DNA of 10,904 nt from an uncultured Clostridia bacterium (GTDB lineage: Bacteria; Bacillota; Clostridia; Oscillospirales; Ruminococcaceae). The position numbers were made by a program, and so were the translations under genes. The notes beneath the pieces were generated by a model. The model did no database searches. It was not told the origin of the DNA and worked only from the letters and a program-made list of their open reading frames with translations. Positions 1,011 through 10,095 of this stretch are shown here, one piece after another. Location of the stretch: the NCBI GenBank assembly GCA_947175045.1, contig CAMWLH010000042.1, positions 1 through 10,904 of the forward strand. Reading direction: 5' to 3'. Each line of letters starts with the position of its first letter. Position 1 is the stretch's first letter.

Positions 1011-1020
1011 CTCCTGATTT
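1011..1020 (-). promoter_or_regulatory. Ribosome binding site with extended AAATCAGGAG motif (flavoprotein gene)
   Basis: On the minus strand AAATCAGGAG precedes ATG 1005 by 5 bases. The AGGAG core sets the start. The upstream AAATC is shared with the RBS of the RpiR gene and clpB but with no other gene in the window. The palindromic element begins 3 bases further upstream. Confidence 0.8.
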
Positions 1021-1023
1021 CAA

Positions 1024-1092
1024 AAAATTTTCCGCGACCCGCCCGCAAAACTCCGCCTCGCTGCGTTTTCGCAGGCTCTCACGGAAAATTTT
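1024..1092 (-). repeat. Palindromic element copy A (intercistronic inverted-repeat element)
   Basis: An outer inverted repeat, AAAATTTTCCG at 1024-1034 against CGGAAAATTTT at 1082-1092, is perfect over 11 bp and extends to 14 positions with one C/A mismatch (1035/1081) that would be G.U in minus-strand RNA. Inside, 1041-1051 (GCCCGCAAAAC) pairs with 1065-1076, with one bulged base at 1070 and one further C/A mismatch (1044/1073). The loop 1052-1064 is TCCGCCTCGCTGC. It resembles copies at 2124-2234 and 9293-9396 but lacks their second inner hairpin. It lies just upstream of the flavoprotein ribosome binding site. Strand is given as that of the flanking genes; the element itself is near-symmetric. 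Confidence 0.82.
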
Positions 1093-1095
1093 GCT

Positions 1096-1197
1096 GCGCG
1101 GGCTTTTCGTTGCTGTCTGCGAGCGCTGCTTTCCTGCGTGGGCTTTTTGTCGCCGTATGCGAGTGTTGCTTTTCTGCGTTGACTTTACGTTGCTTTT
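1096..1197. repeat. 40-bp tandem repeat, about 2.5 units
   Basis: Units start at 1096, 1136 and 1176, an exact 40-base period; the third is partial (22 bases). Units one and two match at 32 of 40 positions by my count, and seven of the eight differences are transitions. The unit carries GCGNGGGCTTTT at its start and TGCTTTNCT at its end. A related 37-base tail follows palindromic copy B at 2249-2285. The array lies between the end of the RpiR gene and palindromic copy A. I see no open reading frame of credible coding character in it. Confidence 0.75.
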
Positions 1198-1202
1198 AGT
1201 TG

Positions 1203-2063
1203 TCAAACGTCCTTTTTATACACGTCATTATTTTCCCAGAGCCTTTCCAGCTTCTCGAAATTCCGCTCCGCGCTTTCGGTATTTCTGTCCGAGACCGCGA
1301 CTATAAGCGCGTTTATAAGGCTCATAGGCGCGACAAGGCTGTCCACGAAAGACACCATATCGGAATACGCGTACAGCGAGATATCCGCCAGAGCCGTAAG
1401 CGGCGAGTTTTCGCTGTCCGTTATCGCAATTATCTTAGCGCCGCTTTCTCTCGCGAACCTGCACGCCTGCACAGTTCCCGAGGCGTACCGCGGGAACGAC
1501 ATAGCCACCAGCAGATCGCCCTCGCCTATATGCAGCATCTGCTGATATATCTCGCTCGTCACCACCGAGCCAACCAGCGTCACCTTATCCAGTATCAGCC
1601 TTAAATAATAATGCATGAACCGTGCCAGAATGCTTGACGACATCGCCCCTTGGATATATATCCGCTTTGCGGAGATCATCGCGTTCACCGCCGCGGCGAA
1701 ATCCTCCCTGTTCACATCGCTGATAGTGCGTCTTATCTTGTCGATATCCTGCGACAGCACCACCTCCACGGGATCCATATCGCCTATCCTGTTGCGGGTA
1801 ACGTCCATTCTTTGCAGCGACGTCAGCCTGTTCTTTATATGGCTTTGCAGCGACCGCTGGAGCTGCGGGTAGCCCTCGTATCCCAGCTCTATCGCAAACC
1901 TCACCACCGTAGACTCGCTCACGTTCACCGCGTTCCCCAGCTTCAGCGCCGTCATATACGCCGCCTTTTCGTAATGCTCCAGAATATACCCCGCTATCAG
2001 CTTCTGGCTCTTTGAAAACTGCGGCATTAACTCCTGTATCCGCTGTAAAAGATCGTCTTTCAT
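1203..2063 (-). CDS. MurR/RpiR-family transcriptional regulator (HTH + SIS domain)
   Basis: This 286-residue protein has the two-part plan and usual length of the RpiR family. Residues 1-77 form the N-terminal helix-turn-helix domain, with the recognition region around 42-60 (NVSESTVVRFAIELGY is strongly typical). Residues about 122-260 form a sugar-isomerase (SIS) phosphosugar-binding domain: IYIQGAMSSSILA at 135-147, GDLLVAMSFPRYASGT at 182-197 and AKIIAITDSENSPL at 209-222. Such proteins repress or activate sugar, amino-sugar or sialic-acid catabolism in response to a phosphosugar; no such catabolic gene is in view, so the effector is unknown. ATG 2063 follows AGGAGGA with a 4-base gap. 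It is upstream of, and probably partly co-transcribed with, the flavoprotein gene, although the repeats between them may uncouple expression. No convincing promoter was found in 2075-2123. Confidence 0.92.
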   Translation of the reverse strand: MKDDLLQRIQELMPQFSKSQKLIAGYILEHYEKAAYMTALKLGNAVNVSESTVVRFAIELGYEGYPQLQRSLQSHIKNRLTSLQRMDVTRNRIGDMDPVEVVLSQDIDKIRRTISDVNREDFAAAVNAMISAKRIYIQGAMSSSILARFMHYYLRLILDKVTLVGSVVTSEIYQQMLHIGEGDLLVAMSFPRYASGTVQACRFARESGAKIIAITDSENSPLTALADISLYAYSDMVSFVDSLVAPMSLINALIVAVSDRNTESAERNFEKLERLWENNDVYKKDV

Positions 2064-2068
2064 CTCGT

Positions 2069-2079
2069 CCTCCTGATTT
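2069..2079 (-). promoter_or_regulatory. Ribosome binding site with extended AAATCAGGAGG motif (RpiR-type gene)
   Basis: AAATCAGGAGG on the minus strand ends 5 bases before ATG 2063. It is the same extended motif as at 1011-1020 and 9276-9286. Here the palindromic element lies further upstream, with about 45 bases of AT-rich sequence between. Confidence 0.82.
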
Positions 2080-2123
2080 TTAATGCTTTTAAGCTTTGTT
2101 GATCCGGGTCAAATTATTTAAAA

Positions 2124-2234
2124 GAATTTCCCGCACCGCTGCAAACAACGCTTTGCGTTGTTTGCGCCAGCCCGCAGAACAGTCAACTCTCCGCTTCGCT
2201 CCGTGTTGACTGTTCTGCGGCTTGCGGGAAATTC
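2124..2234 (-). repeat. Palindromic element copy B (three-way-junction inverted-repeat element)
   Basis: The outer inverted repeat is GAATTTCCCGCA at 2124-2135 against TGCGGGAAATTC at 2223-2234, perfect over 12 bp. Two perfect hairpins lie inside. One pairs GCAAACAACG (2141-2150) with CGTTGTTTGC (2156-2165) over a 5-base loop. The other pairs CCGCAGAACAGTCAAC (2172-2187) with GTTGACTGTTCTGCGG (2205-2220) over the loop TCTCCGCTTCGCTCCGT. Together they would fold as a three-way junction or a cruciform. This is the best-paired copy, which suggests recent arrival or maintained structure. It lies between the SUKH-like gene and the RpiR gene. Confidence 0.88.
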
Positions 2235-2248
2235 ATTCGTGGGCAAAG

Positions 2249-2285
2249 CGTTGCTCTTTGTTGAACGCTGCTTTACTGCGTGGGC
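2249..2285. repeat. GC-rich tail repeat related to the 40-bp array
   Basis: This stretch starts CGTTGCT, contains CGCTGCTTT and ends CTGCGTGGGC. The segment at 1108-1143 has the same three blocks in the same order and almost the same spacing (36 versus 37 bases). Both follow a palindromic element on the same side, so palindrome plus tail may be one composite unit in copies A and B. Copy C at 9293-9396 has no tail; a gene end occupies that side. Confidence 0.65.
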
Positions 2286-2304
2286 GATATGTGCCTCATT
2301 TAAA

Positions 2305-2320
2305 TCCGCCGCAAAGCGGC
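2305..2320. other. Small hairpin after the SUKH-like gene, possibly a decayed element end
   Basis: GCCGC (2308-2312) and GCGGC (2316-2320) form a 5-bp stem with an AAA loop, 17 bases past the stop of the SUKH-like gene. There is no good U-tract on the minus strand, so it is a weak terminator at best. TCCGCCGCAAAGCG here resembles the left end of palindromic copy C (TTCCGCACCGCAAAGCG) with a two-base deletion, so it may be a solo end of that family. Confidence 0.3.
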
Positions 2321-2336
2321 ACCGAATTTTACACTT

Positions 2337-2996
2337 TCAAATCGGCTCTCCCATACCCTCAACAACGTCCATAAGCGCAAGATACGACTCCTCGGAGGCT
2401 GCCCCGAACAGCATCTGCAAGTCCCCGCCGCCGCAGTCCATGACCTGCACCATATTATCCGCCGCGCTGCTGAACAGCAATATCCTGTCGCCGAACCAGC
2501 CGCGCGTTTCATAGGGCAGCTTTGTAAGCCTGTTTTCCAGTACCGCGAGCTCCTTTTCGGTTATACAATAAAATTCCTCGGGGGAGTACTCATAGGAAAA
2601 CACCGCCTCGTAAGCCATCATGGCATACAAAAACTCCGTTGTGCTGTCCGCGCAGAGCCTCCACTCCTTATCGTCCTCGGTGAGGTATACGGGAGGATCG
2701 CCCGCCGACAGGTCATCGCGCAGTATTCCCGCGCGGAATACGCCTTGATTCTCATTAAGCAGCAACAGGCAGTCCGAGCCGCGCAGCCATTCGCTTTTGC
2801 GGAAATGCTCCGGCAGCAGCCACTGATCCTGTCCGTGATGGAGCGCGTCGGTTCGCGCGGCGCGGCGGTAAAATTCCTCGACCGCCCGCGGGAGCGTTCC
2901 GAAAAGCTCCCTCATATAATCTATGTCCTCGTCCGGCAAGCCCTCCAAGCTGTCGACCGCATATAGACTCTTAAGCCATTCAAAAAAGCCGTTCAC
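2337..2996 (-). CDS. SUKH/SMI1-KNR4-like protein, candidate immunity protein
   Basis: This is a 219-residue soluble protein without a signal peptide or membrane segment. Around residues 60-105 it shows a pattern typical of the SMI1/KNR4 (SUKH) fold: a LPEHF-like motif, a run of hydrophobic residues, NENQGVFRAGI, then a short gap and DPPVYL, with EW nearby at 111-112. SUKH proteins are often immunity partners of contact-dependent or polymorphic nuclease toxins, but many are orphan; no toxin gene is visible here. The start is GTG at 2996, chosen because AAGGAG lies 5 bases upstream (3002-3007) and no better start fits. That RBS directly follows the stop of the truncated GNAT frame at 3010, so the two are probably co-transcribed with the DUF3788 gene. 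The family call rests on motif recall only. Confidence 0.6.
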   Translation of the reverse strand: MNGFFEWLKSLYAVDSLEGLPDEDIDYMRELFGTLPRAVEEFYRRAARTDALHHGQDQWLLPEHFRKSEWLRGSDCLLLLNENQGVFRAGILRDDLSAGDPPVYLTEDDKEWRLCADSTTEFLYAMMAYEAVFSYEYSPEEFYCITEKELAVLENRLTKLPYETRGWFGDRILLFSSAADNMVQVMDCGGGDLQMLFGAASEESYLALMDVVEGMGEPI

Positions 2997-3009
2997 AGGT
3001 GCTCCTTAT

Positions 3010-3171
3010 TTATATTGGTAAGGCAGTACTGCATTTCGCGCAGCGCCCGTGCGGAATACTGTCGAGATAATTCTGCGGTATAATGCCCTTATAGGCGTGC
3101 TTCCGGCTTTCCTCATAAACAAGGCTCAGAGCGAACGGATCGTCGTATTCGGAGATAGGTCTTATTGTCAT
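3010..3171 (-). pseudogene. Truncated GNAT N-acetyltransferase (N-terminal remnant)
   Basis: A 53-residue frame begins at ATG 3171, nine bases after AAGGAG (3181-3186). Its first 40 residues match the start of GNAT acetyltransferases: MTIRPISEYDDPFAL, VYEESRKHAYKGI and IPQNYLDSIP correspond to the beta-1 strand and the helix 1-2 region typical of the family (IRP..., V..ES...AY.GI.P..YLD). After HGRC the sequence loses family character and stops. The acetyl-CoA-binding core (the Q/RxxGxG/A loop) is absent, so it cannot be an active acetyltransferase. The likeliest history is a deletion that joined the 5' end of a GNAT gene to the sequence before the SUKH-like gene. It may still be translated, and could couple translation to the next gene. 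Confidence 0.75.
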
Positions 3172-3243
3172 TGGTCGGGTCTCCTTAAAGGTTGATTCAG
3201 ATGATCGTGTAATTTTCCCCCAAACAAACCAACATCGGCGCGT

Positions 3244-3654
3244 TCAACTACACTTGACATCTAATAATTTTTTTATATCATCGAAGTGCTCTTTGCATGT
3301 AACCCGATAATGAATCCAACCGCCGTCACCGCAGGGATATTTGTTGTCTATTTGGTTTTGAGTATATTCTTGCAAATCTCCATATACCAATTCGTATTGC
3401 CTGTCTGATAACCTCATCATAACTGTAAAAGAATTGTTTTCCGCAAAAATATTGCACAACAGCTTTTTCTTCTTTTTATGGGCAATGCCCCAGCCATAGT
3501 TATTGCCGTAGGGAAAGATGATCTCCTGTTCGGTATTATATTTATTGCCCAGCCACTCATTAAGCAGTGTGAACAGTTCCGCATTTTCGCCGCAGTATGC
3601 CGACATTTCCTCAATGCTTGGAACAACCTGCTTATTTAACATTCTTTCATACAT
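3244..3654 (-). CDS. DUF3788 family protein
   Basis: This 136-residue protein opens MYERMLNKQVVPSIEE and carries FPYGNNYGWG at residues 47-56 and KYPCGDGGWIHYRV at 105-118. These features are characteristic, as I recall, of the uncharacterised DUF3788 family, whose usual length is about 130-140 residues; it therefore looks intact. No function is established, and there is no membrane segment or signal peptide. ATG 3654 lies ten bases after AAAGGAG. It is the first gene of a minus-strand cluster with the truncated GNAT and the SUKH-like gene, served by the promoter at 3755-3783. Base composition is much more AT-rich than its neighbours (19 G+C in 60 bases at 3601-3660, against 38 in 60 at 5761-5820 in pnp, counted by hand), suggesting a different origin. 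Confidence 0.8.
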   Translation of the reverse strand: MYERMLNKQVVPSIEEMSAYCGENAELFTLLNEWLGNKYNTEQEIIFPYGNNYGWGIAHKKKKKLLCNIFAENNSFTVMMRLSDRQYELVYGDLQEYTQNQIDNKYPCGDGGWIHYRVTCKEHFDDIKKLLDVKCS

Positions 3655-3754
3655 AAATAAACTCTCCTTTCAACAATCCCTTTCCTATATTTTCACCACA
3701 AACGGGATTTTGTCGGGCAAACACCGGTTTATCAAGCTGTAAATTATTATTTGT

Positions 3755-3783
3755 ATTATACTACATTTGCAGGATTTTTGCAA
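3755..3783 (-). promoter_or_regulatory. Sigma-A-type promoter for the DUF3788 cluster
   Basis: On the minus strand the -35 is TTGCAA (3778-3783), the spacer is 17 bases and the -10 is a perfect TATAAT (3755-3760). Transcription would start near 3748, giving a leader of about 94 bases before ATG 3654. It is divergent from the rpsO promoter about 90 bases away. Within 3655-4033, a stretch of 379 bases without a gene, I see these two promoters and the rpsO leader and nothing else I can support. Confidence 0.75.
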
Positions 3784-3875
3784 GCGGTTTTGCAAAATCT
3801 TTCGTTTGCGGTATTTTTTACAGAAAATCCGACAATAATCCGATTATAAATTTTTTTAAAAAAATCAAAAACCTA

Positions 3876-3904
3876 TTTACAAATCCTTTGGATTGTGATA
3901 TAAT
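3876..3904 (+). promoter_or_regulatory. Strong sigma-A-type promoter for rpsO-pnp
   Basis: The -35 is TTTACA (3876-3881), the spacer is exactly 17 bases and the -10 is TATAAT (3899-3904). Five of six and six of six positions match consensus. The upstream 3845-3870 region is rich in A and T tracts, as expected for an UP-like element of a highly expressed ribosomal gene. The start site is predicted near 3911. Confidence 0.88.
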
Positions 3905-3910
3905 AATAAC

Positions 3911-4033
3911 GTTATGCGGTCGATCATACGAGCATAACAATACTGCTTTCAAGGCTTCGCGGATTTTGCTCCGACAGGAGAAGCACCCTATCCCCCTGCT
4001 TTGATGGCGGAATAAATTCAATGAGGTGTAACT
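3911..4033 (+). promoter_or_regulatory. Structured rpsO 5' leader, candidate S15 autoregulatory RNA
   Basis: The predicted transcript starts directly with a perfect 7-bp stem, GTTATGC (3911-3917) with GCATAAC (3932-3938). A second hairpin has CTCC (3969-3972), loop GACA and GGAG (3977-3980), and may be enclosed by GCTTC (3954-3958) and GAAGC (3980-3984), which share base 3980 with the inner stem. AAGCA (3981-3985) can pair either with TGCTT at 3944-3948 or with TGCTT at 3997-4001, so two folds compete. S15 represses its own mRNA through leader structures in several bacterial groups, and those structures are not conserved in sequence; assignment here is inference from position and fold. Confidence 0.45.
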
Positions 4034-4300
4034 ATGTTAAGAAAAGAAGAAAAGACAGCGGTTATTGAAGCTAACCGTCTGAACGAAAAGGACACGGGCT
4101 CTCCCGAGGTACAGATCGCTATTCTGACCAAGAGGATCAACGAGCTCACCGAGCACATCAAGGTTCACAAGAAGGACCACCACTCCAGACGCGGTCTGCT
4201 GAAGATGGTCGGTCACAGAAGAAACCTGCTCAACTACCTGCAGAAGAAGGATATCGAACGCTACCGCGCAATAATCGCAAAGCTGGGTATCCGTAAGTAA
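4034..4300 (+). CDS. rpsO: 30S ribosomal protein S15
   Basis: The 88-residue product has the standard length of bacterial S15 and its signatures: [37 protein letters not shown] spans the conserved helix 1-2 region in two parts ([10 protein letters not shown] and [12 protein letters not shown]), followed by [10 protein letters not shown] and an IAKLGIRK end. S15 binds the three-way junction of helices 20-22 in 16S rRNA early in 30S assembly and contributes to an intersubunit bridge. ATG 4034 is preceded by GAGGTG. An out-of-frame ATG at 4021 overlaps this ribosome binding site and is not the start. The gene is followed by pnp, a gene order also known from Escherichia coli and Bacillus. Confidence 0.98.
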
Positions 4301-4315
4301 TTTCTCGGAAATAAT

Positions 4316-4359
4316 CGGGCAGCATTGCGCATTTTTTGCATGATCTGCCCGCTTGTTTT
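4316..4359 (+). terminator. Terminator- or processing-type hairpin between rpsO and pnp
   Basis: CGGGCAG (4316-4322) pairs perfectly with CTGCCCG (4345-4351) and is followed by CTTGTTTT. The 22-base interior includes an imperfect further pairing (TGCGCA with TGCA). The interrupted T-run suggests a partial terminator that lets some polymerase through into pnp, since I find no convincing separate pnp promoter. It could equally be a processing site. Confidence 0.6.
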
Positions 4360-4383
4360 ACCCGAAAGGACGGCTTCAAGGGC

Positions 4384-4422
4384 GCAGCGCTGCGGCATTA
4401 AACTGAGCTCCCGCGAAAGCGG
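4384..4422 (+). promoter_or_regulatory. Structured pnp leader segment
   Basis: In the 194-base gap before pnp, GCAGCGCTGC (4384-4393) is a perfect 10-base palindrome, and CCGC (4411-4414) with GCGG (4419-4422) closes a GAAA (GNRA) tetraloop. PNPase autoregulates through leader cleavage in Escherichia coli; whether this leader does so is unknown. Confidence 0.35.
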
Positions 4423-4494
4423 CGGCTGACTTTATTGCTGAGGTCTGTCTGTGCCTTTGAACACAACATTACAAAACAGAAAGGAAAAAGACAA

Positions 4495-6624
4495 ATGTTT
4501 GAAAACTACAAGGTGTTCAAAACAACGTTTGCCGGCAGAGAGCTCACCGTTGAGACGGGCAAGGTCTGCGGGCTGGCTAACGGCTCATGCTGGGTAAGGT
4601 ACGGCGAGACTGTTGTCATGGTAAACGTTACGGCAAGCGCCAAGCCCCGCGACGGCGTGGATTTCTTCCCGCTTTCCGTTGACTATGAGGAGAAGCTCTA
4701 TTCCGTGGGCAAGATCCCCGGCGGCTTCCTCAAGAGAGAGGGCAGACCCTCCGAAAAGGCTATACTGACCTCCCGCGTGGTAGACCGCCCCATGCGTCCG
4801 CTGTTCCCCAAGGATATGCGCAACGACGTGGCCATCACCATGACGGTGCTGGCGGTAGACCCCGACTGCTCCCCCGAGATACTGGGAATGATAGGCGCGT
4901 CCATCGCGGTATCTATTTCCGATATCCCGTGGAACGGTCCTATCGGCGGTATCAGCGTAGGTCTGGTAGACGGCGAGATAGTGCTCATGCCCGATCTGGA
5001 GCAGCGCGCTAAGACCGATCTCACACTGACCGTGGCTTCCTCCGAGAAGAAGGTAGTCATGATCGAGGCGGGCGCGAACGAAGTCCCCGACGACGTTATG
5101 TTCAAGGCTATCATGGCGGGTCACGAGGAGATCACCAAGTCCCTCATTCCTTTTATAAAGGATATCCGGGCGCAGATCGGCAAGCCCAAGTTTGCATTTG
5201 AGAGCCAGGAGGTTGACCACGATATGTTCGACGCGATCTCCGGGTTCTGCATTGACAGGATCAGATACGCGCTGGACACCGATGACAAGAATATTCGCGA
5301 GGAGCGTCTGAAACCCATTGTGGACGACGTTCACGCCAAGTTTGACGAGGTATATCCCGAGCAGATCGCTATGATCGACGAGTGCCTGTACAAGCTCCAG
5401 AAGTTCGTTGTACGCCGCTGGCTGCTGGACGACGGCAAGCGCGTCGACGGCAGAAAGCTGGACGAGATACGCCCTCTCGCCGCAGAAGTGGGAATGCTGC
5501 CGAGAGTTCACGGCTCGGGTCTGTTCACAAGAGGTCAGACACAGGTCATGACGATATGCACCCTCGGTCCCGTAAGCGACTCTCAGAAGCTGGAGGGTCT
5601 GGACGAGGAAGAGGGCAAGCGCTATATGCACCATTACAACTTCCCCTCCTACTCCGTTGGCGAGACCAAGGCGAGCCGCGGACCCGGCAGACGTGAGATA
5701 GGTCACGGCGCGCTTGCCGAGAGAGCGCTTCTCCCCGTTATCCCCTCCGTTGAAGAGTTCCCCTACGCGATAAGACTGGTCTCCGAGGTGCTTTCCTCCA
5801 ACGGCTCCACCTCGCAGGGCTCGGTATGCGGCTCCACGCTGGCGCTTATGGACGCGGGCGTTCCCATCAAAAAGCCCGTCGCGGGCATCTCCTGCGGACT
5901 TATCACCGAGGAAGACCGTTGGATGACAATGGTCGATATCCAGGGCGTTGAGGACTTCTTCGGCGATATGGACTTCAAGGTAGCCGGCTCTCACGAGGGT
6001 ATCACGGCTATACAGATGGACCTCAAGATCGACGGACTTACTCCCGAGATTATCAAGAACGCTCTCGAGACCACCCACAAGGCGCGCGACTATATTCTTG
6101 ACGAGATAATGCTCAAGGCTATCCCCGAGCCCCGCAAGGAGGTCGGCAAGTACGCTCCCAAGATGCTCTCCGCAAAGGTTCCCGTTGACAAGATACGCGA
6201 CGTTATCGGCACGGGCGGTAAGGTTATCCAGAAGCTCTGCGCGGACTTCGACGTCAAGATCGACATCGACGACGAGGGCAACGTATTTATCTGCGGCGTA
6301 GATATGGAAAAGGCGAAAGCCTGCGTTCAGGTCATCGACACCATCGTCAATCCCCCCGAGATCGGCGCCATTTACAAGGGCAAGGTCGTTCGTATAATGA
6401 ACTTCGGCGCGTTTGTCGAGATTGCTCCCGGCAAGGACGGTCTGGTTCATATCTCCAGGCTGGAGAACAGGCGCGTTGAAAAGGTGGAGGACGTTGTTTC
6501 CATCGGCGACGAGATCATCGTTAAGGTCATCGAGATCGACCAGCAGGGCAGGATCAACCTTTCCCGCAAGGACGCTCTCGCGGACATCGAGGCTAAGAAA
6601 AGAGCCTCTCAGAACAACGGTTAA
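4495..6624 (+). CDS. pnp: Polyribonucleotide nucleotidyltransferase (PNPase)
   Basis: The 709-residue enzyme degrades RNA 3' to 5' by phosphorolysis, releasing nucleoside diphosphates, and acts as a ring-shaped trimer. Domain order is complete: first RNase PH fold about residues 10-140 (REGRPSEKAILTSRVVDRP at 81-99), helical linker, second RNase PH fold from about 314 (KRVDGRKLDEIRPL), KH domain about 560-620 with IGTGGKVI at 571-578, and S1 domain about 625-692 (NFGAFVEI, GLVHISRL). The catalytic loop QGVEDFFGDMDFK contains Asp487 and Asp493, equivalent to the Escherichia coli pair Asp486/Asp492. The start is ATG 4495, giving MFENYKVF, with AAAGGA upstream. An in-frame TTG at 4435 adds 20 atypical residues and has no good ribosome binding site. 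The short C-terminal tail after S1 is normal for Firmicutes. Confidence 0.98.
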   Translation: MFENYKVFKTTFAGRELTVETGKVCGLANGSCWVRYGETVVMVNVTASAKPRDGVDFFPLSVDYEEKLYSVGKIPGGFLKREGRPSEKAILTSRVVDRPMRPLFPKDMRNDVAITMTVLAVDPDCSPEILGMIGASIAVSISDIPWNGPIGGISVGLVDGEIVLMPDLEQRAKTDLTLTVASSEKKVVMIEAGANEVPDDVMFKAIMAGHEEITKSLIPFIKDIRAQIGKPKFAFESQEVDHDMFDAISGFCIDRIRYALDTDDKNIREERLKPIVDDVHAKFDEVYPEQIAMIDECLYKLQKFVVRRWLLDDGKRVDGRKLDEIRPLAAEVGMLPRVHGSGLFTRGQTQVMTICTLGPVSDSQKLEGLDEEEGKRYMHHYNFPSYSVGETKASRGPGRREIGHGALAERALLPVIPSVEEFPYAIRLVSEVLSSNGSTSQGSVCGSTLALMDAGVPIKKPVAGISCGLITEEDRWMTMVDIQGVEDFFGDMDFKVAGSHEGITAIQMDLKIDGLTPEIIKNALETTHKARDYILDEIMLKAIPEPRKEVGKYAPKMLSAKVPVDKIRDVIGTGGKVIQKLCADFDVKIDIDDEGNVFICGVDMEKAKACVQVIDTIVNPPEIGAIYKGKVVRIMNFGAFVEIAPGKDGLVHISRLENRRVEKVEDVVSIGDEIIVKVIEIDQQGRINLSRKDALADIEAKKRASQNNG

Positions 6625-6635
6625 TTAAAACGTTT

Positions 6636-6669
6636 TTCCCGCCAAGCCTTAGCTTGGCGGGAATTTTTT
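6636..6669. terminator. Rho-independent terminator shared by convergent pnp and clpB
   Basis: A perfect 12-bp stem pairs 6636-6647 (TTCCCGCCAAGC) with 6652-6663 (GCTTGGCGGGAA) over the loop CTTA, followed on the plus strand by six Ts (6664-6669). It terminates pnp. It also lies directly after the clpB stop, so clpB transcripts would form the same stem; on that strand the U-run is displaced (AAAAACGTTTT). The last two Ts belong to the clpB stop codon. Confidence 0.93.
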
Positions 6670-9268
6670 ATGCTTTTTCAACTGCCAGCGCGCCGTCGGC
6701 AACGCCTATTTTTATAGTATCTCCCTGCCGCACGTTGTCCGCGAGTATCTCCCGAGCTATCAGAGTTTCAAGATTGCGCTGGATATATCTCTTAAGCGGA
6801 CGTGCGCCGAAATTCGGGTCGTAGCTCGAATCAACTATAAACTGCTTCGCGTCGTCGCTGATGCTCAATGTGAGCTGCTTATCCTTCAGCCGCTTTTGCA
6901 GGTCGGCGGTCTGCAGATCAATAATTCCGAATATCTCCGTCTTGGTAAGCGGCTTGTAGAACACTATCTCGTCCAGTCTGTTGAGGAACTCGGGACGGAA
7001 AGAGCGCTTGAGCAGCGAGTCCACCTCACTCCTTGCGGCTTCTGAGATATTCCCGTTTTCGTCTATTCCGTCAAGGATAAACTGCGAGCCGAGGTTTGAG
7101 GTCAGAATTATTATGGTATTCTTGAAATCCACCGTTCTCCCCTGACCGTCGGTTATGTGACCGTCGTCGAGCACCTGGAGCAGCACGTTGAATACGTCGG
7201 GGTGAGCCTTCTCCACCTCGTCAAACAGCACTACGGAGTAGGGCTTGCGGCGCACCGCCTCGGTGAGCTGACCGCCCTCCTCGTAGCCCACATATCCGGG
7301 AGGCGCTCCGATAAGGCGGGACACGCTGTACTTCTCCATATATTCGCTCATGTCGAGCCGCACGATATTGTGCTCGTCATCGAACAGCGACTCCGCGAGA
7401 GCCTTGGCAAGCTCCGTTTTGCCTACGCCGGTAGGTCCTAAGAACAGGAAGGAGCCCAGCGGCTTTCTCGGGTCGTTTATGCCCGCGCGGGAGCGCATGA
7501 TGGCTTCGGTGACACGGCTTACCGCCTCGTCCTGACCCTTTACGCGCTCATGGAGCGTCTCGCCGAGGGAAAGTATCTTCTGCCGTTCGCCCTCCACCAG
7601 CTTTGCCACGGGGATACCCGTCCAGCGAGCCACTATCCGCGCTATTTCCTCCTCTGAGACCTTGTCGCGCAGCAGCGAATCCGCCTTTGCCTGCTCCGCC
7701 GTCTCCTCTTCGCGCTGCAAGTCCGCCTGGAGCTTGGGAAGCGTGCCGTATTGCAGCTCCGCCGCCTTGTTTAGGTTGTACTCCAGCTTTGCCTTTTCTA
7801 TCTCCGCGTTGGTGTTCTCTATCTCCTTGCGGAGCTCCTGCACGCGGGTGATGGCGATCTTTTCGTTTTCCCACCGAGCTTTCATCGCGGAGAATTTATC
7901 CCGCATTTCCGCAAGCTCCCTTTGAATATCCGCCAGGTGCTCCTGCGAGAGCTTGTCGGTCTCCTTTTTCAGCGCCGCCTCTTCAATCTCGTGCTGCATA
8001 ATGCTGCGGGATATCTCGTCAAGCTCCGCGGGCATGGAGTCCATCTCCGTTCTTATCATGGCACACGCCTCGTCCACAAGGTCTATCGCCTTGTCGGGGA
8101 GAAATCTATCCGTGATATATCGGTTGGAGAGCGTCGCGGCGGCGATTATCGCGCTGTCCTGTATCTTTACGCCGTGGAAAACCTCGTAGCGCTCCTTAAG
8201 ACCGCGCAGTATTGAAATAGTGTCCTCGACGGTGGGCTCGTCCACCAGTACTGTCTGGAAGCGGCGCTCCAGAGCGGGGTCTTTCTCGATATATTTGCTG
8301 TATTCGTCAAGAGTTGTCGCGCCGATACAGTGCAGCTCGCCGCGAGCCAGCATTGGCTTGAGCAGATTGCCCGCGTCCATAGCGCCGCCCGACTTTCCCG
8401 CGCCTACTATCAAATGGAGCTCGTCGATGAAAAGGATAATGCGCCCCTCGCTTTTCTTGACCTCCTGCAAAACCGCCTTAAGGCGCTCCTCAAACTCGCC
8501 CTGATACTTCGCGCCCGCGATAAGAGCGCCCATATCCAGTGAGAACAGCTTTCTGTCCTTAAGGTTCGCGGGAACGTCGCCGCGCACTATTCTCAGCGCC
8601 AGTCCCTCTGCGATGGCGGTCTTGCCCACGCCCGGCTCACCGATAAGGCAGGGGTTGTTCTTGGTCTTGCGGGAGAGAATGCGTACAACGTTGCGTATCT
8701 CGCTGTCGCGACCTATCACGGGGTCGAGCTTGTTTGCGCGCGCGAGCTCCACCAGGTCCTGACCGTATTTGTTCAGCACATCATAGGTCTCCTCGGGGTT
8801 CTGCGAGGTAACGCGGGCGCTGCCGCGAATCTCAGAGATTGCTTTCAGCAGGCGGCTCTTTTCAATGCCGAAGCTCCTGAAAATGCCCTTGATACCGCTG
8901 CCCGCCTTTTCCGCGAGAGCTATCAGCAGGTGCTCCACCGAAACATACTCGTCCTTCATGTGCTGCGCCTGCTGCTCCGCTTCGGTGAACGTCTTGTCGA
9001 GGTCGGGGGAAATGAGTATCTTTCCCGCCTCTCTGCCGCTGCCCGTTACCCTTGGCATACCTTCCACGAATTTCAGCGCGGCGGTCTTTACCGCTCCCGC
9101 ATCAATATTCATTTTGGTGATTATCTGCGGAACAAGCCCGCCGTCGTCCGCCATCAGCGCGTAAAGCAGGTGCTCCTGCTCCACGCAGTTGTTCTGGTAG
9201 CTGATGGACAAGTCCTGCGCCGCCTGTACCGCTTCCATTGTTTTTTGTGTAAATTTATTAGGATTCAT
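6668..9268 (-). CDS. clpB: ATP-dependent chaperone ClpB (Hsp100 disaggregase)
   Basis: The 866-residue protein is full length. It shows the N-terminal Clp repeat domain (1-150; QEHLLYAL and VEHLLIAL mark the two repeats). NBD1 has Walker A GEPGVGKT at 210-217, pore loop KYQGEFEER at 254-262, Walker B IILFIDEL at 277-284 and arginine fingers RR at 335-336. The coiled-coil middle domain at about 405-530 separates ClpB from ClpA/ClpX and binds DnaK. NBD2 has Walker A GPTGVGKT at 611-618, pore loop GYVGYEEGG at 658-666 and Walker [12 protein letters not shown] at 679-689. It lacks the IGF/IGL-type loop of protease partners, as far as I can see. With DnaK it threads aggregated proteins for refolding in the cytosol. 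ATG 9268 follows AGGAGG (9276-9281). No CIRCE or CtsR box is visible upstream; transcription may come from the RHH gene promoter. Confidence 0.98.
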
Positions 9269-9275
9269 ATAAAAA

Positions 9276-9286
9276 CCTCCTGATTT
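9276..9286 (-). promoter_or_regulatory. Ribosome binding site with extended AAATCAGGAGG motif (clpB)
   Basis: AAATCAGGAGG on the minus strand, with seven bases between the AGGAGG core and ATG 9268. It begins six bases after the edge of palindromic copy C and is identical over 11 bases to the RBS of the RpiR gene. Confidence 0.85.
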
Positions 9287-9292
9287 TGAATT

Positions 9293-9396
9293 GAAATTTT
9301 CCGCACCGCAAAGCGATTGAGTTTGCTATCTCGCCCGTAAAAGCTCCACTTCGCTTCGCTCCGTTACGCTTTCACGAGCGGATTACGGAAAATTTC
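9293..9396 (-). repeat. Palindromic element copy C (clpB leader)
   Basis: The outer inverted repeat GAAATTTTCCG (9293-9303) with CGGAAAATTTC (9386-9396) is perfect over 11 bp. A short inner hairpin pairs GCAAA (9308-9312) with TTTGC (9322-9326). The main inner stem pairs 9332-9344 (CGCCCGTAAAAGC) with 9368-9380 (GCTTTCACGAGCG). Eleven of 13 positions are Watson-Crick; the other two (9335/9377 and 9339/9373) are C/A, hence G.U in minus-strand RNA. The loop contains CTTCGCTTCGCTCCG. The fold matches copy B. It fills the gap between the RHH gene and clpB. Confidence 0.84.
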
Positions 9397-9420
9397 CTGC
9401 CACAGTCCGCATAACGGCGG

Positions 9421-10095
9421 CTAAATGATCACCGCCTGCCTTATTATATCCGCGGAGTAGCCCTCCTCCGCTGCTGCCGCCGCCGCTTCAATATCGGGAA
9501 GCTCCCCTAAGAAGCGCTTCATAACTCCGTCGAACATCGCCATGTAGTCCGCGACCGCCATGCCAAGCTCCTCGTCGGTGATGTTCTCCGAGGGCATACT
9601 GAACGTCCTTGAGAACCTCCCGTTTTCAATAGTATACACGATATTGCGGTTAAGGGAAGCCGCAATATATTTTTGCTCCAGAGCCGCCCAGCAGGAGAAA
9701 AACTCCGTCAGTTCGCCGATGAGCCGCGCGTTCTGGGTGCGGAAGGACACCCGCAGCTCGCCCGCCTTTTGTCCGCCGCGCGAGTATATCTCCACGGAGT
9801 ATCGCACCGTGGGCTTATATCGATACTTCAGCGTTGAACGGCAGGAGATGGTGCTCCCCGAGGACTGCTCCATAAGGTAAAATTCCCCGTTCATGGAGCC
9901 TTGCAGCGCCGCCAGTATATCACGCAGCCGCATTTCGGGAGTGGTGTAGGCGACCCGCTCTGCCAGAATTTGGTTTATCATTGCTGAACGGCTCAACCCC
10001 GCGTTTCGCGCCAGTATATCCACTGCCTCCACTACGCTGTCCGACAGCACAAGGCTGTAAATGCTCTTGTCCGTTTTTAACGCCTCCTCCTGCAA
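9421..10095 (-). CDS. Protein with N-terminal ribbon-helix-helix (CopG-like) domain, upstream of clpB
   Basis: This 224-residue protein has residues 10-48 (KSIYSLVLSDSVVEAVDILARNAGLSRSAMINQILAER, seen in two blocks: a beta strand SIYSLVL and helices ending LSRSAMINQILAE) that fit a ribbon-helix-helix DNA-binding domain. I do not recognise the remaining 170 residues: an alpha/beta region with alternating strands (YRYKPTVRYSVEIY, ELRVSFRT) and helices, ending in an Ala-rich stretch. It may be a transcription factor with a ligand or partner domain. The start is TTG 10095, chosen because AAGGAG (10101-10106) lies 5 bases upstream and the promoter leaves only 14 bases of leader. It precedes clpB on the same strand by 152 bases, with no promoter seen between, so it may share regulation with clpB. 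Confidence 0.62.
   Translation of the reverse strand: MQEEALKTDKSIYSLVLSDSVVEAVDILARNAGLSRSAMINQILAERVAYTTPEMRLRDILAALQGSMNGEFYLMEQSSGSTISCRSTLKYRYKPTVRYSVEIYSRGGQKAGELRVSFRTQNARLIGELTEFFSCWAALEQKYIAASLNRNIVYTIENGRFSRTFSMPSENITDEELGMAVADYMAMFDGVMKRFLGELPDIEAAAAAAEEGYSADIIRQAVII

Follow-up and report, generated by a model that had tools for sequence, protein, structure and literature searches.

The 10,904-nucleotide window analysed here (contig C42 of the source genome G000, an assembly of 2.55 Mb in 443 contigs with an estimated completeness of 78%) contains three copies of a palindromic element, each preceding a gene on the minus strand. According to Pfam, these genes encode a HI0933-like FAD protein, an RpiR/SIS regulator and ClpB. 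An earlier sequence-only reading had described each copy as an outer inverted repeat enclosing an inner hairpin and had proposed that they belong to a larger structured or mobile family, an interpretation that is supported by our analysis. The outer repeats are located where they had been placed (Table 1), as is the inner stem of one copy claimed to pair perfectly over 16 bp (copy 2, 2172-2187/2205-2220), whereas the layout with a single hairpin had to be revised, since a second hairpin, P3, gives rise to a three-way junction. P3 is well defined in copy 2, weak in copy 3 and absent in copy 1. The better-folding strand is the minus strand of the window, which reads toward the gene start. A single covariance model (R1, built from the 26 copies of alignment A1) matches all three copies in cmsearch with scores of 52.5, 120.0 and 105.3 bits and an E-value of 2.3e-12 for the weakest; copies 2 and 3 (the latter as row L001) match by construction since both are contained in A1, whereas copy 1 was left out of the training. 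The palindromes noticed initially are real and were understated, as the three copies are members of a dispersed family. The earlier reading did not notice that the element forms a three-way junction, lies in a fixed orientation next to the Shine-Dalgarno sequence and occurs in species-typical sequence types, nor how rapidly its stems change between sister species.

The prediction of many further copies in the genome was borne out by a search with R1, which identified at least 138 matches in G000 at an E-value of 0.01 or better, a lower bound obtained from the best 150 of 2030 candidates. Plain blastn with copy 3 finds 55 matches in the same genome at E 1, itself included, and by either search the family exceeds the three copies of the window. 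The contigs of G000 used for the placement counts below were chosen for holding matches, and these counts inform on placement and not on density. In G018 (Oscillospiraceae bacterium isolate Mgla_MAG_34-bin_10, 99% complete), 59 matches in 384,482 surveyed bases correspond to one per 6.5 kb and, if this density is even, to about 400 copies per genome. The genus, whose members are metagenome-assembled genomes labelled Oscillospiraceae, Ruminococcaceae or Clostridia, was surveyed with a second model, R2, made from alignment A3 (49 copies from the window genome and seven relatives), with the best 75 candidates or fewer scored per genome under stricter filters. Matches were found in 17 of 43 genomes, G000 included. 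Twelve of these contain ten or more and are referred to as element-rich (G000, G006, G018, G021, G023, G024, G041, G048, G049, G051, G053, G056), five contain one to three, and no match was detected in the other 26 at the threshold used. On a tree of ClpB sequences from 39 genomes, the distinction between 11 rich and five 'few' rows requires five changes, at least four of them on starred branches, and is not clustered, since a number this low was reached in all 500 shuffles; genomes without matches lie between rich ones (by eye and outside the change count). Searches beyond the genus were shallow, which makes absence there weak: with the best 16 candidates scored in each of 197 genomes of the family, no match was found except in G000, and with the best eight in each of 394 genomes of the order, weak matches came from three genomes, seemingly of P2-type hairpins only. 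At the carA loci of less related genomes we found one match among 52, at an E-value of 0.062. The outer stem P1 is species-typical: the window genome has GAAATTTTCCGCA, G018 has GCAAATT-types, G021 has GCAAAAGTCGC, and G006 and G023 have GAAATTTCAAAA.

A full copy is about 105 nt long, or about 150 nt with its 5' module, and comprises, in the direction of the gene, this 5' module (35-40 nt), P1 (about 12 bp), P2, an unpaired A, P3, an unpaired GG, the second P1 arm and an unpaired TTTAAAT-like tail, which is usually followed by a Shine-Dalgarno sequence and a start codon. No bases separate P1 from P2 in the junction. RNAfold predicts the three-way junction in 57 of the 59 G018 matches, and P3 is absent in some copies besides copy 1. 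The unpaired residues are highly conserved: the A accounts for 42 of 47 letters at its position in A3 and for all 58 in A4 (the 59 copies of the single genome G018), the first G for all 48 and for 55 of 59, and the second G for 45 of 48 and 51 of 59. Concerning the stems, 95.6% of the 1991 cells in A3 are paired, with changes on both sides in 41 of 44 pairs and a covariation score of 0.613, compared to 0.173 in shuffled and at most 0.102 in slid controls, the latter being surpassed partly because the structure was drawn from the same sequences. Two-sided changes are also found in 41 of 44 pairs in relatives alone (A2, 29 rows) and in 42 of 44 within G018 (A4), where the score is 0.519 compared to 0.162 after shuffling. 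As judged by these pair counts and controls, which were used in place of R-scape, the covariation is real and the structure is selected or otherwise maintained.

The fold is biased toward one strand. G.U exceeds A.C by 94 to 17 in G000 and by 85 to 15 in G018; triloops are of GNA, TNC or other type in 64, 2 and 40 cases in G000 and in 60, 4 and 35 cases in G018; and the sense strand folds to lower energy in 66 of 71 and 53 of 55 copies, respectively, with loops counted in matches of at least 60 bits (G000) and 50 bits (G018). This bias speaks against the element functioning solely as a duplex cruciform and fits RNA and single-stranded DNA alike. In the window genome, P2 often ends in 5-nt steps consisting of two paired bases and GNA opposite GNA, an arrangement found in 76 of 87 three-by-three loops in G000 and in seven of nine in G018. 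Long hairpins with the same steps and no clear three-way junction were observed at L104, L107 and L109 (G533), L105 (G492), L106 (G524) and L093 (G044). G533, G492 and G524 belong to other genera, the copies in G533 are near-identical, and these hairpins may form a repeat family of their own or be where P2 arms come from. G054 (L094, L110, L113) contains a different, nearly identical three-armed repeat with the P1 sequence GCAATGTTCCGC and no obvious Shine-Dalgarno sequence after it, and two copies in G018 (C1:9817 and C1:223435) harbour nearly the same extra structured insert of about 65-80 nt within the tip of P2. A Rho-independent terminator was rejected, as P1 is followed by the A/T-mixed TTTAAAT-like tail and, by eye, no U tract in sense.

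Table 1. Element copies and adjoining features in the window.
Feature	Position	Strand	Basis
Copy 1: P1 (1024-1034/1082-1092) enclosing a single hairpin P2 (about 1041-1075), no P3	1024-1092	-	fold; cmsearch 1006-1103, 52.5 bits
Shine-Dalgarno AGGAG (sense) of the HI0933-like FAD gene, start codon 1005-1003	1011-1015	-	sequence; gene assignment
5' module upstream of copy 1 and degenerate ~40-nt units, D2 copies 1121-1150 and 1161-1190	1093-1200	-	repeat search
Copy 2: full three-way junction; P1 2124-2135/2223-2234, P3 2141-2165, P2 2172-2220	2124-2234	-	fold; cmsearch 2105-2244, 120 bits
Extra spacer unit of copy 2 and Shine-Dalgarno AGGAGG (2069-2074) of the RpiR/SIS gene, start codon 2063-2061	2069-2123	-	sequence; gene assignment
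Repeat unit of ~40 nt upstream of copy 2, with D2 at 2263-2292	2235-2292	-	repeat search
Copy 3: three-way junction; P1 9293-9303/9386-9396, weak P3 9308-9326, P2 about 9329-9382	9293-9396	-	fold; cmsearch 9272-9406, 105.3 bits
Shine-Dalgarno AGGAGG of clpB, start codon 9268-9266, directly 3' of copy 3	9276-9281	-	sequence; clpB by Pfam

Most copies are positioned beside translation starts. Among 55 copies in G018 with scores of 40 bits or more, the cutoff for all placement counts, 44 are followed by a Shine-Dalgarno sequence, a start codon and an open reading frame (ORF), with the start codon mostly 0-7 nt past the end of the model, while three are internal to arrays and eight are classified as 'other'. 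The corresponding numbers for 84 copies in G000 are 51 with a Shine-Dalgarno sequence and start, 11 array-internal, four at contig ends and 18 'other', the last including copy 2, which is separated from its Shine-Dalgarno sequence by about 45 nt, and several more whose start lies slightly further on (by eye). At random positions a Shine-Dalgarno sequence and start are encountered in 7.0% (G018) and 7.6% (G000) of cases, and on the antisense side of the element in none and one. If copies directly abutting an ATG without a Shine-Dalgarno sequence are added (six in G018, one in G000), the sense-oriented and start-proximal copies amount to 50 of 55 and 52 of 84. Within operons of G018, elements precede genes that we take, from their sequences, to be carA, pyrF, pyrC and pyrK. 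Folding predictions give the ribosome-binding site a higher mean probability of being unpaired in genes with an element (0.56, 35 genes) than in other genes (0.42, 120 sampled from 236 other long ORFs; p 6e-4). The Shine-Dalgarno sequence may be carried by the element or native to the gene, and the evidence points both ways: among long ORFs, TAAGGAG precedes 29 of 35 element genes compared to 14 of 236 others, whereas element-free clpB genes already contain GGAGG-type sites and the dnaK Shine-Dalgarno sequence is the same in G053, where the element is present, and G056, where the site is empty or scarred.

Elements recur before the chaperone genes dnaK, dnaJ and clpB in several species (L062, L112, L075, L117 and 9293-9396 of the window), with those at L075 (G021) and L117 (G041) located in leaders of what are, from sequence, presumably dnaJ genes. 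In the 12 element-rich genomes, a DnaK match was obtained in all except G000, and in G048 the leader is cut off. The ten dnaK leaders examined contain a clear element in G024, G053 and G041, a weak one in G049 and G018, and no match in G056, G021, G023, G006 and G051, and we consequently rejected a conserved heat-shock leader, since the element is not universal at this position. The gene following dnaK is preceded by an element in both sister species G018 (L404, 3425-3569) and G051 (L403, 976-1108, minus strand); it is not dnaJ-like and its product begins with MNTKQAEVAINDL.

Comparison of related genomes reveals sites with and without the element. At clpB, the element is absent from most of the other species read (by eye): 19 genomes keep the upstream gene, and a short gap ahead of the Shine-Dalgarno sequence stands in place of the window genome's element. 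Element-like arms are visible there in G006 and G041 (by eye, with no model run on these loci). In G018 and G051, where aligned blocks are mostly 88-96% identical, the sites of 23 G018 elements were examined, of which 15 are filled in both genomes, three only in G018 and five are unclear. Sites lacking the element in relatives are found at clpB, C1:11096, C1:222233 and C17:99597, although the last resembles, in G051, a copy that has lost its hairpin, a scar rather than a site that was never filled. None of the three junctions compared to an element-free sister, C17:99597 among them, displays a clear target duplication. At C1:11096, the last codons of the upstream gene differ by eye from those in G051 (L372), which suggests that arrival of the element altered the end of the upstream protein. 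In the window, the ORFs at 9421-10095 and 2337-2996 on the minus strand (224 and 219 residues) show no Pfam family at E 1e-4; the former is located upstream of clpB in many species of the genus (by eye).

The stems at shared sites have changed extensively. In the 13 of 15 shared sites that could be parsed, stems are kept only at C17:102774 (0.96 for P2 and P3), and in the other 12 the similarities of P2 and P3 are at 0.34-0.82, the stems differing far more than the flanks. At six of the 13 sites one finds a stem in G051 that agrees at 0.96-1.00 with another G018 copy than the one at that site, and across G018 copies the similarity of P2 is uncorrelated with that of P3 (0.02). The same turnover is found at carA, pyrF and pyrC in L256, whose CarA is 98% identical to that of G018 and which may be the same species as G051. 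The replacement of stems and their matches to other copies make it appear that copies overwrite one another or that arms are rewritten together, and the change between sister species is too fast for slow compensatory substitution alone.

Upstream of other copies, too, units of about 40 nt are found that resemble the degenerate ones preceding copy 1 and form ladders. A profile of the 5' module, constructed after excluding seven of 55 elements without clear P1 ends, retained 63 matches at an E-value under 0.1 in the G018 stretch (12 of 75 were above this value) and none in the reversed sequence. Of these, 44 lead into a called three-way junction and 19 do not; seven of the latter are followed immediately by another module, one (C17:18018) by a tail, Shine-Dalgarno sequence and start, and the others are truncated or degenerate elements (all by eye). 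Such modules would be the scars of older copies that have lost the hairpin. At L346, L347 and L348 of G000, two or three similar units follow one another in tandem, spaced 51-52 nt apart.

The family appears to lack a name, as had been suspected: Rfam returned no match in the window at the gathering score and none in 10 loci at E 1, and no such family was encountered in titles and abstracts on repeats, structured RNAs, miniature inverted-repeat transposable elements (MITEs), Shine-Dalgarno sequences and template switching, a literature with few subscription journals. A term search of a MITE review found no mention of Shine-Dalgarno, start codon or three-way (PMC10969869). For human microbiomes, candidate RNAs located upstream of genes have been described together with palindromic ones, and the family possibly overlaps with the supplementary motifs of that work (PMC8040213). 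The proposed alternative of a structured or a MITE- or REP-like family holds with respect to structure and to MITE-like copy number, the P1 arms and abundance conforming to the short, non-coding, dispersed, high-copy character with terminal inverted repeats of classical MITEs. It does not hold for REP elements and their RAYT transposases proper. REP elements are single hairpins of about 20-40 nt with a GTAG or GGAG head; REPs and their composites, BIMEs, are palindromic and occur in many copies of species-specific types. The latter traits are shared by the element described here, which differs in its three arms, its length of about 105 nt, with a three-way junction in 57 of 59 G018 matches, and the lack of a detected Y1 transposase in ten of 12 rich genomes. 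Nearest in style, compared by description only, is BOX of Streptococcus pneumoniae, which in the accessible text is modular, present in high copy, predicted to fold when transcribed and of unsettled mobilisation, but which is over-represented between convergent genes and whose description there does not include a three-way junction whose palindromic arms vary (PMC3049150). Correia/NEMIS, ERIC and RUP elements are likewise short, non-coding and palindromic with highly folded transcripts, and a table in the consulted part of the source lists terminal repeats and target duplications (PMC2229807), whereas here no duplication was found and copies are start-proximal and sense-biased. In its start-proximal position, sense orientation and conserved junction the element has the features of a leader RNA, and, like riboswitches and protein-binding 5' leaders, it keeps unpaired bases conserved in a compact junction immediately before starts; it differs from them in copy number, patchiness, stem turnover and the lack of an Rfam family. 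An origin from phages or plasmids was rejected, since copy 3 has no blastn match in either collection.

On balance, the element is probably an interspersed repeat, non-autonomous and sense-oriented, whose copies have become numerous in some species of the genus and are mostly kept just upstream of translation starts. The mRNA-sense strand would fold into a self-contained three-way junction followed by an open tail and the ribosome-binding site. The repeat would be moved by a mobiliser acting in trans and would enter 5' of the Shine-Dalgarno core or the start codon; older copies would lose their hairpin, resident copies would be overwritten by others through conversion or re-insertion, and the insert would be tolerated because its fold insulates the ribosome-binding site and keeps it open. 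More tentatively, it may be a mobile leader RNA or DNA element that is aimed at initiation regions in one orientation and that has colonised a large proportion of the ribosome-binding sites of a genome, is overwritten again and again by other copies and leaves behind, upstream of each gene, a ladder of hairpin scars of about 40 nt. Several observations weigh against the account of an interspersed repeat. We found no mobiliser, target duplication or autonomous copy in searches that covered the Y1 and reverse transcriptase families and not the ends of insertion sequences, and these two families do not track the element. The 15 of 18 clear sites that are common to the sisters fit inheritance as well as hot targets, no start was detected at 18 of the 84 copies in G000, two of which are followed by terminator-like hairpins (by eye), and AAGGAG cannot be the only target, since the six G018 copies abutting ATG lack a Shine-Dalgarno sequence. 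The alignments used for pair counts were fitted to the model and thus favour it. Serial re-insertion, which predicts that the better-kept copy in an array is nearest to the start, is not supported, as the start-proximal copy of 14 array neighbours scores higher in six, lower in seven and equal in one case; seven of 11 array gaps in G000 measure 51-52 nt and look like tandem duplication.

If the copies instead were cis-regulatory leaders sensing a ligand or protein, duplicated and held by selection for regulation in a very large regulon, the conserved junction bases, the sense-biased placement before starts, the predicted opening of the ribosome-binding site and the recurrence before chaperone genes would be expected; we regard this as doubtful in view of the variety of genes preceded by the element in G018 and its density there of about one copy every 6.5 kb, the rapid replacement of stems between sisters and the lack of matches in 26 of 43 genus genomes and in half of the dnaK leaders. 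It is quite unlikely that the pairing is kept mainly by mutation rather than selection, with template switching during replication copying one arm onto the other so that stems drift yet stay perfect. Template switching reportedly generates perfect stems and keeps them so (PMC8794818), and it would account for wholly different stems that still pair at the same site in close relatives, but it leaves unexplained both the conserved unpaired junction bases and the one-strand bias of G.U over A.C and GNA over TNC, and the G051 stems that match other G018 copies, found at six of 13 shared sites, point to exchange between copies. It is highly improbable, finally, that a Y1 transposase mobilises the family as a single-stranded DNA element of REP/RAYT or IS200/IS605 type. 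The palindromic high-copy nature, the better folding of one strand, the GCAG-like bases 5' of P1 in several species and the GNA triloops, which are unusually stable in DNA, would suit such an element, yet at an E-value of 1e-5 Y1_Tnp was found in nine of 43 genomes and in two of the 12 rich ones (once in G006 and as a fragment in G000), and not in G018, G021, G023, G024, G041, G048, G049, G051, G053 and G056, four of which are under 90% complete. Y1 or RAYT proteins were on this basis rejected as general mobiliser, as was reverse transcriptase as a general cause, with RVT_1 detected in 16 of 43 genomes and six of the 12 rich ones but not in G000, G006, G023, G024, G049 and G051.

If a sense-oriented interspersed repeat is indeed at work, many mRNA leaders of some gut species would consist of a single folded element, selfish or domesticated, and 5' leaders, operon-internal starts and covariation would have to be interpreted differently in these genomes. 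The family would also offer a natural test of whether covariation always signifies selection, as its stems change wholesale between sister species yet still pair while the junction bases are nearly fixed, and it raises the question of what could place hundreds of copies at ribosome-binding sites, all facing the same way.

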